Below are positions 46,390 to 55,272 of a stretch of 64,000 nucleotides of DNA, in pieces. Position 1 is the first letter of the stretch, and each line of letters opens with the position of its first letter. The translations under genes and the position numbers were made by a program. The notes under the pieces were generated by a model that worked only from the letters and a program-made list of their open reading frames with translations, made no database searches and was not told the origin of the DNA. The stretch is from an uncultured bacterium (GTDB lineage: Bacteria; Krumholzibacteriota; Krumholzibacteriia; LZORAL124-64-63), in contig CAIWHK010000028.1 of the NCBI GenBank assembly GCA_903912525.1, forward strand, positions 1-64,000, in the 5' to 3' direction.

Positions 46390-48141
46390 TTGTCGGGCGA
46401 CGAACGCAGCACGCGGGCCGGGTCACCGGCTTCCGAGGGAGGCCGGGGCGACCCGGCTTCCCGTCTGTTGCGTTGGCGCGTGCTGATGACGGCCGTGCTG
46501 GCGGTCGTGACGGCGGTCGCCGGCCTGGTCGGGGTGGCCGAGGTCTGGCGGCCGGGCGTGCTGGCCTCGCTGGGCCTGTTGTGCACCTCGCTGGCGGTCA
46601 GCTGGGCCGCCTCGATGGCCGGTGTCCGGCAGCGCCCGCTACTCGTGATGCAGGTCGTCTCTGACACCATCGCGATCGGGCTGCTGGTGCAGTTCACGGG
46701 TGGCCCGTATTCGGCGCTGCCGCTGGCGTTCTGCGTGCCCATCATGTGCGCCGCCCTGTACCTGGACCGACGCTGGTCACTGGTGGTGGCGGGGGCCGCG
46801 GCCGTCCTGGTCGGGGGCGCGCATTTCGGCCTGGCGCTCGGCTGGCTGGCTTCGGGCGACCATCCTTCCCTGGACTACCTGTCGGGCTGGCCGGTGCTGA
46901 TCACCGCGCTGCACATGTCGCTGTTCGTCGTGGTGGGCATGGTCGCCGGGGACCTCGCGGCGAAGCTCGAACGGCGCCGGCGCGAGCAGGCCCGCAGCCA
47001 GCGGTTGGTCGAGCAGGCCCGCCGCGAGGTGCGCGATATCCTGGACTGCCTCCAGAGCGGCCTGCTGACCGTCGACACGCGCGGCACCGTCACGCGGGTC
47101 AATCCCTCGTGCTGTCGCATCCTGGGGTTGCTGGAAACGCAGCTGCTGGGCGCCCCGCTGCAGACGCTCGTCGACGAAGGCCTCGAGGCGCTGGCGGCGC
47201 TCGTGCTGCCTGTCGCCGCCGGCGGCACGGCGGTCATTCGTGGCGAGACCACACTGCGTCAGCAGGGTGTGCTGGTTCCGATCGGCCTGAATGTCAGCCA
47301 TGTGACCGGCGCGCGCGGCGAGGTGACGGGCGCGGTCGTCGTCTTCACCGACCTGACCCGCGAGAAGGAACTGACGGCACGGCGGCGCGAGACCGACCGC
47401 CTGGCCGCCGTCGGCGAACTGGCCGCCAGCATTGCGCACGAGATCCGCAACCCGCTTGCCTCGATCCGCGGTTCGGTCGAGATGCTCTCGGGCGAGCTCG
47501 AGCTGGAAGGCTATCAACGGCAGCTGTTCGACCTCGTGCTCAAGGAGAGCGCGCGGGTGAACTCGATCATCAGCGATTTCCTGGCCTATTCGCGCATGCG
47601 ACCGGTCTCGCGGCGACGCTTCGCCGCTTCATCGTTCAAGGACGAAACGCTGCTGCTGTTGCGGCAGCACGTGGCGGCTGCGCGCGGCGACGTGCGGGTG
47701 TCGGCGGACGTCACGCCGGCCGACCTCGAGCTGGTGGCCGACCCGGCGCAGCTGACGCAGCTGGCGCTCAACCTGGCGATCAACGCCTGCGAAGCGATGC
47801 GCTATCACGGCCGGCTGCGGCTGGCGATCCACCTGGTCGGCGGTGGCGAGACATTCGAGCTTGTCGTCACCGATGACGGCCCGGGCATCGAGGCCGACAT
47901 CCGGGACGATCTTTTCCAGCCCTTCAAGACCACGAAGGAAGGCGGCACAGGCCTGGGCCTGTCTGTGGTCGCGCGCATCGCGACCGCCCACGGCGGCACC
48001 GTGCGCGCCGAGGACGCCCCCGGCGGCGGCGCCATCTTCCGCGTCCGCTGGCCGCGGGTCGAGCTTGCCGCCGAGGAGACGCACGTACCCGAACCTGCTT
48101 CGGCCGAACCCGCCCGCGAGACCATCCTGGTCACCGTCTAG
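46390..48141 (+). CDS. pilS: Sensor histidine kinase PilS
   Basis: The 583-residue protein uses a TTG start with GGGAGG just upstream, 2 bases after the pilC stop. Six membrane helices (residues ~30-190) form the input domain. A PAS-like domain follows (about 215-330; ILDCLQSGLLTVDTRGTVTR), then the phosphoacceptor helix with H350 in IAHEIRNPLASIRGSVEML. The HATPase domain has N, G1 and G2 boxes (LNLAINACEAM; DDGPGI; GGTGLGLSVVARIA). PilS controls PilR and hence pilin transcription. The short gap to pilC argues for cotranscription, while pilR has its own upstream region. Confidence 0.93.
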   Translation: MSGDERSTRAGSPASEGGRGDPASRLLRWRVLMTAVLAVVTAVAGLVGVAEVWRPGVLASLGLLCTSLAVSWAASMAGVRQRPLLVMQVVSDTIAIGLLVQFTGGPYSALPLAFCVPIMCAALYLDRRWSLVVAGAAAVLVGGAHFGLALGWLASGDHPSLDYLSGWPVLITALHMSLFVVVGMVAGDLAAKLERRRREQARSQRLVEQARREVRDILDCLQSGLLTVDTRGTVTRVNPSCCRILGLLETQLLGAPLQTLVDEGLEALAALVLPVAAGGTAVIRGETTLRQQGVLVPIGLNVSHVTGARGEVTGAVVVFTDLTREKELTARRRETDRLAAVGELAASIAHEIRNPLASIRGSVEMLSGELELEGYQRQLFDLVLKESARVNSIISDFLAYSRMRPVSRRRFAASSFKDETLLLLRQHVAAARGDVRVSADVTPADLELVADPAQLTQLALNLAINACEAMRYHGRLRLAIHLVGGGETFELVVTDDGPGIEADIRDDLFQPFKTTKEGGTGLGLSVVARIATAHGGTVRAEDAPGGGAIFRVRWPRVELAAEETHVPEPASAEPARETILVTV

Positions 48142-48353: not shown

Positions 48354-49865
48354 ATGCCTTTGGGCAGAATCCTTGTCGTTGATGATGAAGACTCCATGTG
48401 CCAGTACCTGTCGATCCTCCTGCGCAAGGAAGGGTACACCGTGCGCACGGCCAACTCGGGAGCCCAGGCCCTCAAGGCGATCGAGGAGGAACCCGCAGAC
48501 CTGGTGATGACTGATATCCAAATGCCGAAGATGGACGGTATCCAGTTGCTGAAGGGCATCAAGGCGATGGATCCCACGACGCCCGTGGTGATCATGACGG
48601 CCTATGCCAGCGAGCAGTCGGCGATCGACGCCGTCAACCTCGGCGCCTTCAGCTACCTGCAGAAGCACTGCAAGAACGACGAGATCAAGATCGTCGTGCG
48701 CAACGCGCTCGCGCTGCGGCAGGCCAAGACCGAGGCGCAGGAACTGCGCCGCGAGCTGTCGAAGAAGAAGACCACGAAGTCGATCATCGGCCAGAGCCCG
48801 CGCATGCGTTCGGTCTTCAAGATGGTCGACAAGATCGCCTCGACGACGGCGACCATCCTCATCAACGGCGAGAGCGGCACGGGCAAGGAGCTCATCGCCC
48901 AGTCGATCCACCAGCGCTCGGACCGCGCCAACGAGACGTTTGTCGCCATCAACTGCGGCGCCATCCCCGAGACGCTGCTCGAGAGCCAGCTTTTCGGCCA
49001 TGTGAAGGGCTCGTTCACGGGAGCCGATCGCGACCACGACGGCTTCTGCCGCCAGGCAGAGAACGGCACGATCTTCCTCGACGAGATCGGCGAGACCCCG
49101 CACGCCATCCAGGTCAAGCTGCTGCGCATGCTGCAGGAACGCGAGATCTACCCGGTGGGCAGCAGCTGTCCGGTGAAGGTCAACGTGCGCGTCATCGCGG
49201 CGACCAACCGCGACCTCGAGGACGAGGTCGCCCGCGGCAACTTCCGCACCGACCTCTACTACCGGTTGAACGTGATCCCGCTGAACCTGCCCTCACTTCG
49301 TGACCGGGTCGACGATATCCCGCTGCTGGTCGACCACTTCCTGAAGCGCTGCTGCCCCGGCGAGTACGTCGGCCCTCTGCCGACGATCCTGGACGACGGC
49401 GCGCTGCGCGCCCTGCAGGCCTACGACTGGCCGGGCAACGTGCGCGAGCTGGAAAACGTCATCGAGCGGGCGAGCATCATCCGCGAGGGCACCCGCATCA
49501 CCATGCGCGACCTGCCGACCTTCGTGGCCGACGCGCAGGGCGGGCAGGCCGCGGGCGGCAACCTGGCCGTGGGCGGGCCGTGGACGCTCGAGGACCTGGA
49601 GAAGGCCCACATCCTGGCTGTCCTGGACGGCAGCGGCCGGGCCCGCAAGCAGACGGCGGACATTCTCGGAATCAATGCCTCGACGTTGTATCGAAAGCTA
49701 AAGAAGTACGGCGTCCAGGACGATGATGATGTGCAGGCGCTGGCCGACGACCTGGCCGGCACCGCCGGGGAGGAACTCCTCGCGGCGATCGATGCCCAGC
49801 TGCGCGAGCAGGACGGGTCGGTCGCGGCACCCGGTGTGCCCGAACTGGAAACAGTGGGTTCCTGA
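48354..49865 (+). CDS. pilR: Sigma-54-dependent response regulator PilR
   Basis: The 503-residue activator starts behind GAGGAGA. The receiver domain has the phosphoacceptor D54 (MTDIQMPKMDG). The AAA domain has Walker A GESGTGKE (172-179), the sigma-54 contact loop GSFTGA (219-224, where most relatives have GAFTGA), and FLDEIGETPHAIQVKLLRML. The C-terminal Fis-type helix-turn-helix is at about 405-445 (RKQTADILGINASTLYRKLK). It should activate sigma-54 promoters, and three good ones lie in this locus. The 212 bases before it are AT-rich around 48240-48280 and probably hold its own promoter, though no clean hexamer pair is seen. Confidence 0.95.
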   Translation: MPLGRILVVDDEDSMCQYLSILLRKEGYTVRTANSGAQALKAIEEEPADLVMTDIQMPKMDGIQLLKGIKAMDPTTPVVIMTAYASEQSAIDAVNLGAFSYLQKHCKNDEIKIVVRNALALRQAKTEAQELRRELSKKKTTKSIIGQSPRMRSVFKMVDKIASTTATILINGESGTGKELIAQSIHQRSDRANETFVAINCGAIPETLLESQLFGHVKGSFTGADRDHDGFCRQAENGTIFLDEIGETPHAIQVKLLRMLQEREIYPVGSSCPVKVNVRVIAATNRDLEDEVARGNFRTDLYYRLNVIPLNLPSLRDRVDDIPLLVDHFLKRCCPGEYVGPLPTILDDGALRALQAYDWPGNVRELENVIERASIIREGTRITMRDLPTFVADAQGGQAAGGNLAVGGPWTLEDLEKAHILAVLDGSGRARKQTADILGINASTLYRKLKKYGVQDDDDVQALADDLAGTAGEELLAAIDAQLREQDGSVAAPGVPELETVGS

Positions 49866-50018: not shown

Positions 50019-50034
50019 TGGCACGGCCGTTGCA
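50019..50034 (+). promoter_or_regulatory. Sigma-54 promoter of pilA
   Basis: TGGCACGGCCGTTGCA is an exact match to the -24/-12 consensus TGGCAC-N5-TTGCW, with GG and GC ten bases apart. Transcription would start about 50045, giving an 80-nt leader before pilA. PilR, encoded just upstream, is the expected activator. Confidence 0.88.
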
Positions 50035-50124
50035 ATGAGCAGGTGCCATTCGCAGCCACAGGAGCGCCGGCCTTGACCGGCGATCGCACGCGGGCCCCCG
50101 GGCCCCAGTCCAAGGAGACGGACA

Positions 50125-50535
50125 ATGACGAATCGCAAAGGATTTACGCTGATCGAGCTGATGATCGTCGTGGTCATCATCGGCATCCTGGCCGCCATCG
50201 CCATCCCCAACTTCATCAGCATGCAGGACCGTGCGAAGGAAGCCAAGGTCAAGGGCGCGGCGCACACCGTGCAGCTGGCCGCTGAGGACTATGCTGTCCG
50301 CAACGACGGCATCTACTCGGACGCGCAGGCTGACCTGCAGGCCCTGCTGCCCGGCGGTAACCTGCTGGACAACGCGTTCTCCGGCGTCGCCGCCGAGCCC
50401 CAGTTCGCTGCGGCCGCGGGCGCTGCCGGTGAGGTTGGCATCCAGGCTGTGGTGCAGGGCGGCGTGAACGTCGGCTACACCATCACCGGCTTCGGCAAGA
50501 CGGCCAACATCCTGACCCTGGTCAGCGGTTCGTAG
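50125..50535 (+). CDS. pilA: Type IVa major pilin PilA
   Basis: The 136-residue prepilin starts behind AAGGAGA. The leader MTNRKG is cut by PilD before FTLIELMIVVVIIGILAAIA, the standard N-methylated hydrophobic helix with Glu5. The head domain is short (IYSDAQADLQALLPGGNLLD and strands such as VGIQAVVQGGVNVGYTITGF) and has no cysteine pair. Its own sigma-54 promoter and its own terminator (50560-50595) make it a strong monocistronic unit, as expected for the major pilin. A second pilin of equal length is at 51282. Confidence 0.96.
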   Translation: MTNRKGFTLIELMIVVVIIGILAAIAIPNFISMQDRAKEAKVKGAAHTVQLAAEDYAVRNDGIYSDAQADLQALLPGGNLLDNAFSGVAAEPQFAAAAGAAGEVGIQAVVQGGVNVGYTITGFGKTANILTLVSGS

Positions 50536-50559
50536 GCACGACTGCCGGCTCTGGCGAAT

Positions 50560-50595
50560 GGGACGGGGTCGTGTGAGCGGCCCCGTCCCTTCTTC
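50560..50595 (+). terminator. Intrinsic terminator after pilA
   Basis: GGGACGGGG (50560-50568) pairs perfectly with CCCCGTCCC (50581-50589) around a 12-nt loop, followed by TTCTT. It would end most pilA transcripts before the pilin-like gene. Confidence 0.75.
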
Positions 50596-50618: not shown

Positions 50619-51230
50619 ATGGACCAGACGCAGGAAACGACGACCCCGACGCCGGAGACGGCTGCCGACGCTGCGGGCGGCAAGCCGAAGCTGAAGCTCC
50701 CGGGCTTGAAGCTGCCGGCGCTCAAGCTGCCCGCGCTCGGACCTGTCCTGGCCAAGCTGCCGCGTCCCCGGCTCGCGATGCCGGATCCCGCGGCGCTGGA
50801 CCCGCGCCGCTGGCGCATCGGCAAGTCGGTGCTGCCGGACCTCTGGCTGGCCGTGGGGGCGGCGAGCCTGGTTCTCAGCATCCTCTACATGGTCATGGGC
50901 CCCGCCCGCGAACAGGTGCGGATGCGGTCGGCCGAGGTGGCGACGAGGAACAACGCGGCGACGCTGCAGCTGGCCGCCGAGACCTACGCCGCCGCGAACA
51001 TGGGTCGCTACCCGCGGGACGTGCGGGAGCTGCTGCCCTACCTGCCGGGTGGGGAAGCCCCGCGCAACCCGTTCAGCGGCGACCCGGTCATGTTCCGCGC
51101 GGCCGGCGGTGACCTCACCTGGCGCACGCAGGCGGGCCGGGACTATGTGATCGAGGCCTGGGGCCCGGGGCCGGCAAGGCCCAGCCGCCTGGCGACGCTG
51201 CGCGGGAAGGCACCTGCGCAGGCCCATTGA
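50619..51230 (+). CDS. Pilin-like protein with Lys/Pro-rich N-terminal extension and no prepilin motif
   Basis: The 203-residue protein starts behind GGGAAGGA. Residues 1-70 are hydrophilic and repetitive (KLKLPGLKLPALKLPALG). One membrane helix follows (about 77-95, LWLAVGAASLVLSILYMVMG). After the helix, ATLQLAAETYAAANMGRYPR and LLPYLPGGEAPRNPFSG align with the matching parts of both flanking pilins (TLQLAVEDYAVAHEGIY; LLPGAGMLANVFTG). The prepilin cleavage motif G-F-T-L-I-E is absent, so PilD should not process it and it cannot polymerise normally. It looks like a pilin head transplanted onto an inner-membrane anchor with a cytoplasmic tail. A minor-pilin-like regulator or platform partner is possible; the function is unknown. 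Confidence 0.7.
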   Translation: MDQTQETTTPTPETAADAAGGKPKLKLPGLKLPALKLPALGPVLAKLPRPRLAMPDPAALDPRRWRIGKSVLPDLWLAVGAASLVLSILYMVMGPAREQVRMRSAEVATRNNAATLQLAAETYAAANMGRYPRDVRELLPYLPGGEAPRNPFSGDPVMFRAAGGDLTWRTQAGRDYVIEAWGPGPARPSRLATLRGKAPAQAH

Positions 51231-51281: not shown

Positions 51282-51692
51282 ATGAGAATGCGCGAAGGAT
51301 TCACCCTGATCGAGCTCATGATCGTCGTTGTCGTGATCGGCATCCTGGCAGCCATCGCGATCCCCAACTACATGAGCATGCAGGACCACGCCAAGGAAGC
51401 CGGCACCAAGAGCGGCGCCCACACGCTGCAGCTGGCGGTCGAGGACTATGCCGTCGCTCACGAGGGCATCTACTCGGTCGCGGCCGCGGACATCACACCC
51501 CTGTTGCCGGGCGCCGGCATGCTGGCCAACGTATTCACCGGCGCCCGCAGCGAGCCGCAGTTCGGCGCTGCTGCGGGTGCTCCCGGCGAAATCGGCATCG
51601 AGCTGGTCGTGCAGGGCGGGATGCCCACCGGCTACGTGATCACCGCAGCCGGGCGCACCGGCAACTGCTTCACGGTCAACAACGGCAACTGA
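51282..51692 (+). CDS. Second type IVa pilin
   Basis: The 136-residue prepilin starts behind GAGGAAG. The leader MRMREG precedes FTLIELMIVVVVIGILAAIA, with Glu5 present. The rest parallels PilA over its full length (for example EDYAVAHEGIYSVAAADITP versus EDYAVRNDGIYSDAQADLQA), so it arose by tandem duplication; one cysteine is near the end (GNCFTVNNGN). It lacks an obvious promoter of its own and may be read with the pilin-like gene before it. It may be a minor or alternate pilin. Confidence 0.9.
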   Translation: MRMREGFTLIELMIVVVVIGILAAIAIPNYMSMQDHAKEAGTKSGAHTLQLAVEDYAVAHEGIYSVAAADITPLLPGAGMLANVFTGARSEPQFGAAAGAPGEIGIELVVQGGMPTGYVITAAGRTGNCFTVNNGN

Positions 51693-51706: not shown

Positions 51707-51722
51707 TGGCACCGCCATTGCA
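51707..51722 (+). promoter_or_regulatory. Sigma-54 promoter of the ABC transporter genes
   Basis: TGGCACCGCCATTGCA matches the -24/-12 consensus exactly, with GG and GC ten bases apart. It lies 15 bases after the second pilin stop and points to the ATPase gene at 51806. Transcription would start about 51733. Confidence 0.85.
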
Positions 51723-51805: not shown

Positions 51806-52858
51806 ATGTCCCGTCAGGTAGTGGCAGAAAACGTACCGCACGCGCGCGCCCGCGCAATGGCCGGCAATCGGCCGGAGCTTGACCTGGGCACGCCGGGCGC
51901 CGAGCCCGGGATCGCCGCCGAACCGGCCCTGCACGTGGTGGACCTGACCAAGAGCTTCCGGTCGGGCTTCGCGCGCCGGGAAATCCGGGGCATCGAAGGT
52001 GTCTCGTTCACGGTCGCCCGCGGCGAGGTGTTCGCCCTGCTGGGTCACAACGGCGCGGGAAAGACGACCACGATCGGCTGCCTGCTTGACCTGGTGCGCC
52101 CCGAGCGCGGCGAAGTAAAACTCCTGGGCCGTGACCATCGCGACCGCGTTTCGCGTGCGCGGGTCGGCTACCTGCCCGAACGCCCATACTTCTTCGACTA
52201 CCTGACCGGCCGCGAGTTGCTCGAATTCTACGCCGACCTGCAGGACATCGATCGGCGCGAGCGCACCGGCCGCATCGACGAGGTGCTGCGCCAGGTCGAC
52301 ATGTTCAGCGACGCCGGCCGCCGCCTGAACAAGTACTCCAAGGGCATGCTGCAGCGGCTGGGGCTGGCGCAGGCGCTGCTCGGCGACCCGGACCTGCTCA
52401 TCCTCGACGAGCCGATGTCGGGCCTCGACCCCATGGGGCGCCTGGAAGTGCGTTCGCTCCTGTTGGGCCTCAAGAAGCAGGGTCGGACGATCCTCCTTTC
52501 CAGCCACATCGTGCCCGACGTCGAGCAGCTGGCCGATGCGGTCGGCATCCTGCGCGACGGCCGACTGGTCCTGAACCAGCGCCTCGGGTCCCTGGCCGAC
52601 GCCTGCTCGTACCGCGTCCGCGCGGGCGCCCCCGCAGCGACAGTGCTCGCGGCCGCGGTGCCGCTGTGGGCCATGTCGGCAGTCGACCCCGCCAGTGCGG
52701 GCGCGGTTACCGACCTTTCGGCCGCCGACCCGCGCCAACTGCGCGAACTGCTCGAGGCCTGCGACCGGGCAGGGTTGGCGGTGCTGGCCGTGGATTCGCA
52801 ACGGTCCGGCCTGGAGGACCTGTTCCTGACGACCCACCGCCGCGGGGGAGAGGCATGA
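51806..52858 (+). CDS. ABC transporter ATP-binding protein of the pilus locus (PilH-like)
   Basis: The 350-residue protein starts behind GGAGGTGGG. After a ~45-residue leader comes a standard ABC domain: Walker A LLGHNGAGKTTTIG, the YLPERPYFFDYLTGRELL region, signature YSKGMLQRLGLAQALL, Walker B LLILDEPMSGLDP and switch LLSSHIVPDVEQLAD. The C-terminus carries a ~90-residue extra domain. In Myxococcus the pil locus carries an ABC transporter (PilG, PilH, PilI) between pilA and pilD, needed for piliation. This gene, the permease after it and the TPR gene occupy that same place, so it is probably the PilH counterpart. Its transported substrate is not known. Confidence 0.88.
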   Translation: MSRQVVAENVPHARARAMAGNRPELDLGTPGAEPGIAAEPALHVVDLTKSFRSGFARREIRGIEGVSFTVARGEVFALLGHNGAGKTTTIGCLLDLVRPERGEVKLLGRDHRDRVSRARVGYLPERPYFFDYLTGRELLEFYADLQDIDRRERTGRIDEVLRQVDMFSDAGRRLNKYSKGMLQRLGLAQALLGDPDLLILDEPMSGLDPMGRLEVRSLLLGLKKQGRTILLSSHIVPDVEQLADAVGILRDGRLVLNQRLGSLADACSYRVRAGAPAATVLAAAVPLWAMSAVDPASAGAVTDLSAADPRQLRELLEACDRAGLAVLAVDSQRSGLEDLFLTTHRRGGEA

Positions 52859-53631
52859 CCCGGAACCACGTCATCGCGCTGGCCCGCGGCACGTTCCTGG
52901 AGACCGTGCGCGACCGCGTGTTCTACCTTGTCGCCGTGTTCGGCTTCATCATGATGGGCAGCACCACGATCCTCTCGCCGCTGACCATCGGCGCCCAGGG
53001 CAAGATCGTCAGCGACGTCGGCCTGGCCGCGATGACGCTGCTCGGGCTGCTCGTGGTCGTCTTCGTCGGCAGCGGCATGGTGCACAAGGAACTGGACAAG
53101 GGCACCATCACGACGATCCTGTCGAGGCCCGTCGGCCGTCGCGAGTACCTGCTGGGCAAGTTCCTCGGCCTGAACCTGACGATGGCCGCGATGCTGGCCG
53201 TGATGTCCGTGCTGTTCCTGCTGATGCTGCTGCTTTCGCCGGGCGCCTTTTCGCTTCGCTTCGGCATCGCGTTCTACATGGCGTTCATCGAACTGTCGCT
53301 GATCACGGCAATCGTCGTCTTCTTCTCGACCTGCGTCTCGCCGGTGCTGTCCGCCGTGTTCACGCTCGGCGCCTTCGTGGCTGGCCATCTCAGCGAGTCG
53401 ATCCGCGACTTCGGGCACCTGCAGCAGGGACCCGTCGCCCAGGCCGTCGGCACCGTCGTCTACTACCTGCTCCCGAACCTCGAAGTATTCAACGTGCGCG
53501 GCTCGATCGTGCACGGCGACCCCGTGACGGCAGCGCACATCGGCCTTGCCACGCTGTACGCCGTGTGCTGGTCCACGCTTCTCCTGCTGCTGTCCGGTGC
53601 CGTGTTCAGCCGCCGGGAGCTGCGAGGGTGA
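52855..53631 (+). CDS. ABC-2 type permease of the pilus locus
   Basis: The 258-residue membrane protein starts at an ATG overlapping the ATPase stop (ATGA). About six helices are visible (YLVAVFGFIMMGSTTI; AAMTLLGLLVVVFVGSGMV; MAAMLAVMSVLFLLMLLL; LATLYAVCWSTLLLLLSG). The soluble turn ELDKGTITTILSRPVGRREY is the usual ABC-2 permease feature. It pairs with the ATPase before it to form an exporter-type transporter inside the pilus gene order, like PilI in Myxococcus. The substrate is unknown. Confidence 0.85.
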   Translation: MTRNHVIALARGTFLETVRDRVFYLVAVFGFIMMGSTTILSPLTIGAQGKIVSDVGLAAMTLLGLLVVVFVGSGMVHKELDKGTITTILSRPVGRREYLLGKFLGLNLTMAAMLAVMSVLFLLMLLLSPGAFSLRFGIAFYMAFIELSLITAIVVFFSTCVSPVLSAVFTLGAFVAGHLSESIRDFGHLQQGPVAQAVGTVVYYLLPNLEVFNVRGSIVHGDPVTAAHIGLATLYAVCWSTLLLLLSGAVFSRRELRG

Positions 53632-55256: not shown

Positions 55257-55272
55257 TGGCACGCATGTTGCG
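55257..55272 (+). promoter_or_regulatory. Sigma-54 promoter of pilMNOPQ
   Basis: TGGCACGCATGTTGCG matches TGGCAC-N5-TTGC with only the last, weak position off. GG and GC are ten bases apart. It lies about 75 bases before the pilM start, in the 223-base gap after pilD. Confidence 0.75.

Follow-up and report, generated by a model that had tools for sequence, protein, structure and literature searches.

A pilin paralogue without the prepilin motif is encoded directly behind pilA in Krumholzibacteria and may serve as a membrane partner of PilA

The type IV pilus locus of an uncultured bacterium of the class Krumholzibacteriia encodes, directly behind pilA, a protein that is, as judged from its sequence, a full-length pilin homologue minus Gly-1, Phe1 and Glu5. 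This protein, the product of the open reading frame at 50619-51230 of the window (the whole 64,000-nucleotide stretch of DNA analysed), is here called X. No description of the X family was found in the literature searched; X is a new family, and pilin-linked accessory proteins are already known as a kind.

The window derives from an assembly of 72 contigs that is 97.8% complete, and the genes treated here all lie on its forward strand. The locus runs in the order PilC, PilS, PilR, PilA, X, Pil2, ABC ATPase, ABC permease, TPR protein, PilD, PilM, PilN and PilO, with names assigned from gene order and Pfam; the names PilH and PilI for the ABC ATPase and permease follow an analogy with Myxococcus (PMC6060248). 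A PilS-like sensor kinase (46390-48141; 6TM_PilS-like region, PAS, HisKA and HATPase) and a PilR-like sigma-54 response regulator (48354-49865) precede PilA, a major-type pilin that is full length here, with 136 residues including the head (50125-50535; intact GFTLIE; Pfam N_methyl, E 2.9e-10; AlphaFold2 pilin fold with a mean pLDDT of 89.8). X is followed by Pil2, a second pilin of 136 residues with intact GFTLIE (51282-51692; Pfam N_methyl, E 3e-8), by the ATPase in the PilH position (51806-52858; Pfam ABC_tran, 1.6e-29, and synteny) and by the permease in the PilI position (52870-53631; Pfam ABC2_membrane_2, 3.4e-12). The number of pilins between X and PilH varies among genomes (0, 1 or 2); for instance, one genome (G012, L040:1566-2402) has two tandem extra pilins downstream of X. 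In a genome of genus g4, which is without X (G006, L051:6162-6575), the second pilin has the unusual motif GFGLAETAVV, in which G-1, F1 and E5 are kept and the rest is changed.

X itself is a protein of 203 residues whose reading frame occupies exactly 50619-51230 (forward strand), with an ATG start and GGAAGG just 5' of it. A sequence-only reading of this DNA had described it as a pilin-like protein flanked by two true pilins and lacking a prepilin motif, and this description stands: both neighbours carry GFTLIE, while X gives no match at E<=1 to Pfam or NCBIfam, N_methyl included. In a tblastn search of its own genome, X matched the two flanking pilins (50068-50421, E 5.4e-7; 51330-51578, E 1.5e-6) and a lone pilin on another contig (E 9.6e-6). 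The genome's lone extra major-type pilin (G000:C14:21134-21547; L074:4138-4548) has an intact motif, and no other pil reference gene was matched in the 11 kb surrounding it. When a profile of 18 X orthologues was compared with one of 27 pilins from the class, the match had a probability of 99.3% and an E value of 3e-20 over 111 columns; given this E value, the similarity of X to pilins is not due to chance. Searching solved structures in the PDB with the X profile returned chance-level matches only, the fourth being Thermus PilA5 (E 0.98). AlphaFold2, run with the X alignment, predicted X with pLDDT above 90 across most of the core. The model contains a helix (69-126), a short helix (135-141) and three strands (166-171, 175-182 and 189-196), and the PilA model contains a helix (9-59), a short helix (68-74) and strands at 104-111, 114-123 and 128-134, plus one short strand. 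The predicted fold of X thus has the pilin order of helix, short helix and three strands and follows the neighbouring pilin element by element; the lack of structural similarity that the sequence-only reading had named as refuting was not observed. Foldseek against the PDB returned nothing significant for the X model, nor for a true PilA control (best pilin-like match EpsG, E 3.2); because the control was equally null, the null result for X was discarded as insensitive.

What distinguishes X from its neighbours lies at the start of the helix. Residues 74-95 (50838-50903) form the transmembrane alpha1-N and correspond to pilin positions +1 to +22, with D74 at the F1 position, A78 at the E5 position and P95 as Pro22; residues 96-203 (50904-51227) form alpha1-C and a small beta head, predicted to be periplasmic, with elements as in PilA. 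Counted back from the invariant proline, the alpha1 helix aligns with both flanking pilins without gaps. The sequence-only reading was right that the part after the helix aligns with both pilins, but homology does not begin only there, since the helix itself aligns. At positions -1, +1, +5 and +22, the pilins have G, F, E and P and X has P, D, A and P. Among 18 aligned X orthologues, position -1 is P (14), S (2) or D (2) and never G or A, +1 is always D or E, and +5 is A, T, V or G and never E. Two further orthologues (G077 and G078) fit this pattern, one of them having A at -1 but D at +1 and A at +5, and glycine at -1 is absent from all 20. The class III signal (Gly or Ala at -1, Phe or Met at +1, Glu at +5) is therefore missing from the X orthologues, whereas the other pilin hallmark, an uncharged hydrophobic alpha1-N ending in Pro22, is present in X: in 18/18 aligned orthologues Pro22 is kept and +2 to +21 are uncharged. 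Because the second pilins inspected at X loci retain G-1, F1 and E5, the loss of the prepilin residues is specific to X. From the lost motif we infer, as the sequence-only reading had, that cleavage of X by PilD is not to be expected and that X is no normal filament subunit.

Residues 1-73 (50619-50837) make up a Lys/Pro/Leu-rich cytoplasmic tail that is predicted to be disordered and contains the Lys/Pro repeat KLKLPGLKLPALKLP. The repeat is real, as first noticed, but it does not replace the prepilin motif; the extra tail lies upstream of the mutated motif. Nor is the extension a hallmark of X: a tail of about 73-76 residues before the helix is confined to this genus, and in the other genera the tail has 12-31 residues and is usually basic. 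The defining change of X is the motif, not the tail. A start-codon artefact was ruled out as the source of the long tail, the start of which is the same within the genus and which is under selection (omega 0.28-0.63).

The X profile was searched against 80 genomes of the class, and a phylum-level search covered the same 80. X is present in 20 of the 38 genomes of one family (f1), representing 7 genera, and in 0 of the 42 genomes of other families. The 20 genomes match at E<=2.3e-54, and all other matches have E>=1e-18; nearly all of these weaker matches start near pilin position 22, and they were taken as true pilins, which those inspected are. X lies downstream of pilA wherever the contig is long enough, and each of the 19 other carriers has the gene in the corresponding position; the general loss from relatives that the sequence-only reading had named as refuting is thus not seen. 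The contigs with named X orthologues belong mostly to metagenome-assembled genomes of Candidatus Krumholzibacteriia or Krumholzibacteriota. One public record titled Gemmatimonadales (JAHOYV010000029.1; L089) bears this Krumholzibacteria-family locus, and its label is probably wrong. Genomes of the family without any PilI match (e.g., genus g6) are likewise without X; five genomes of genera g3 and g6 (G005, G008, G016, G025 and G031) have neither a PilI-type permease match nor X, and these have apparently lost the pilus cluster, or their assemblies do not include it.

In a tree of PilC, PilR, PilH, PilI and PilM, the X-bearing genera g1, g5, g7, g9, g10 and g12 fall in one clade (support 0.986), and genera g4 and g13, which are without X, branch outside it; the seventh X genus, g2, was left out of the tree as its contig is too short. 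The clade also contains g8, two genomes of which (G010 and G027) have a contiguous PilR-PilA-Pil2-PilH stretch from which X is missing. In the pilin tree X is monophyletic (support 1.0). The simplest history is a single gain of X and its loss from one genus, g8. Its omega of 0.07-0.43 indicates purifying selection, and the orthologues comprise 20 open, intact copies in 7 genera with 23 invariant columns; X is a working gene, neither a freak nor a pseudogene. The loci of g5 and g2 contain X but no Pil2, so the constant neighbour of X is PilA. The same observation, together with the presence of Pil2 without X in g8, weakened the candidate idea that X is a partner of Pil2.

The arrangement of expression signals sets X apart from pilA. 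A sigma-54 (-24/-12) promoter, TGGCAC-N5-TTGCA, lies upstream of pilA as an exact match (50019-50034, forward strand), and a TGGC[AC]-N6-TTGC site is found at the corresponding place in 18/18 X loci examined. A second promoter-like site, also an exact match, lies between pil2 and the ABC genes (51707-51722, forward strand); a similar site is found upstream of PilH at every X locus with a long enough contig and in several X-less genomes of the family, and the PilH/PilI ABC transporter is probably part of the PilR regulon in these bacteria. A sigma-54 site with one mismatch lies just upstream of PilM (55257-55272). Between pilA and X no such site was found in the X-bearing loci, and a sigma-54 promoter of its own was rejected for X. 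The interval instead holds a terminator-like hairpin of about -29 kcal/mol followed by CTTC (50558-50591, forward strand; hairpin search and ViennaRNA), which a generic terminator scan with a loop limit of 8 did not list. In 18/18 X loci this interval contains a hairpin (-23 to -33 kcal/mol) with a pyrimidine-rich stretch after it. X-less relatives have an equivalent hairpin downstream of pilA; the hairpin therefore predates X, and the idea that it was gained together with X was rejected on this ground. Because X lies behind this hairpin and is without its own sigma-54 promoter, it is probably expressed by read-through and at a lower level than PilA, although a sigma-70 promoter could have escaped detection. 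The dS of X exceeds that of PilA in 7/7 pairs, which agrees, as indirect evidence, with X being less highly expressed and under weaker codon constraint.

The reading favoured here, held tentatively and by analogy with known pilin-linked proteins, is that X may be a non-polymerising inner-membrane partner of PilA, either a chaperone or an assembly adaptor. X would have arisen as a paralogue of a pilin gene of this locus and been turned into a permanent inner-membrane protein. If PilD cannot cut it, X would persist as a single-pass protein with a cytoplasmic basic tail and a periplasmic head, and read-through of the hairpin would supply it in smaller amounts than PilA. Within the membrane, the pilin-pilin surfaces of its helix and head could then let X pair with PilA, either mature or in precursor form, and X might stabilise PilA or pass it to the assembly platform while itself staying out of the fibre. 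Because related genera manage without X, it is not generally needed for assembly.

A possible but unlikely alternative is that X mimics a pilin, cannot be cleaved, stays in the membrane and has a dedicated regulatory role, in which it either sets the PilS-PilR switch or blocks or roots the pilus base. Were this so, pilin inventory or fibre length would be gauged against a fixed internal reference and not against PilA alone. In the first form, which the sequence-only reading had raised and which by itself is somewhat less probable, X at a fixed level in the membrane would contact PilS as a pilin does and set or buffer the signal of the PilA pool. Autoregulation in Pseudomonas works through direct contact between PilS and PilA (PMC6058289). 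The pilin-like helix of X, which cannot leave the membrane, would suit such a ligand, as would the sigma-54 promoter at pilA and the presence of pilR and pilS two and three genes upstream of X in every long-enough contig. However, pilS-pilR-pilA is intact in relatives without X (g4, g8, g13 and other families), and X-less relatives keep the pilA sigma-54 site as well; thus, PilS regulation does not need X. Moreover, the helix surface of X at +1 to +21 differs strongly from that of PilA, the most conserved region of X is the periplasmic head, which a pure intramembrane ligand would not need, and nothing links X specifically to PilS. The gene layout is at least as compatible with a chaperone or adaptor role. 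In the second form, which is doubtful, X would be a non-extractable subunit at the platform that blocks extension, ends retraction or roots the fibre. With its head and Pro22 kept, Glu5 and the free N-terminus lost and a basic tail added, X could dock there and not be extracted, and its presumably low expression would suit such a role; nevertheless, the missing Glu5 should weaken docking, and no precedent was found in the literature searched.

The remaining readings fare worse. X could in principle be an atypical minor pilin that is processed unusually and enters the fibre, as GspK-type minor pseudopilins without Glu5 do. Some minor pilin-like proteins are indeed without Glu5, and X keeps a pilin head; GspK-type proteins, however, retain the Gly-1 cleavage site, whereas in the aligned X orthologues -1 is occupied by P, S or D and +1 is acidic, and X's own genome already has ordinary prepilin-motif clusters elsewhere, which makes this reading improbable. 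It is more improbable still that signal peptidase I frees X as a soluble periplasmic pilin domain. The hydrophobic segment near its N-terminus could serve as a signal peptide, for which the signal-peptide-bearing GSU1497 is a precedent (PMC5174107), but only 4/18 orthologues have an AxA-like site close to the end of the helix, alpha1 is predicted to run unbroken over residues 69-126, and Pro22 is retained as in membrane pilins. That X is a functionless, decaying duplicate has very little to commend it: within this genus X has diverged faster than PilA (76 vs 90% identity to the nearest relative), but the purifying selection, intact copies and invariant columns described above largely refute decay.

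Pilins are defined by a signal that allows them to be cut and stacked. In X this signal was lost a single time, at the base of one bacterial clade, and nearly every lineage descended from that ancestor has retained X as a protein of its own, encoded next to its parent. Mutations of Gly-1 and Glu5 are a classical means to study pilin processing and assembly, and X would offer a natural test of how a pilin helix and head act in the membrane before assembly.

Among known proteins, X resembles type IVa major pilins (PilA) and pseudopilins (GspG) in its homologous helix with Pro22, its small beta head and its predicted topology; it differs from them in having no Gly-1, Phe1 or Glu5 and an acidic +1, so that cutting and assembly are not expected. 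With the PilS-PilA autoregulation of Pseudomonas, the locus shares the neighbourhood of pilS, pilR and a sigma-54 pilA promoter and the prospect of a pilin signal in the inner membrane (PMC6058289), although in that system the ligand is PilA itself, and no dedicated uncleavable paralogue was found in the literature searched. In Pseudomonas, TfpY is encoded behind the pilA terminator and has been proposed to touch PilA and promote assembly from outside the fibre (PMC11841053). X shares with TfpY, TfpX, TfpZ and FimB of Pseudomonadota the position of an inner-membrane protein gene directly downstream of the pilin gene and of a terminator thought to be attenuating, a layout found in 18/18 X loci. 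In contrast, TfpY-like proteins cross the membrane with three helices and carry an unrelated domain of mixed alpha/beta type, whereas X has one transmembrane helix and a pilin head and is a pilin homologue; X was found only in Krumholzibacteria, and the TfpY family belongs to Pseudomonadota. In Geobacter, GSU1497 (PilA-C or Spc) lies next to pilA, is thought to be a degenerate pilin duplicate and has been reported to stabilise PilA (PMC5174107). GSU1497 and X both adjoin pilA, derive from a pilin and are without the prepilin motif, but GSU1497 is a beta head only and partners a truncated PilA, whereas X has its own transmembrane helix beside a full-length PilA. X belongs to neither the TfpY nor the GSU1497 family; as a partner of PilA, it would be an accessory factor that originated from a pilin and converged with both.
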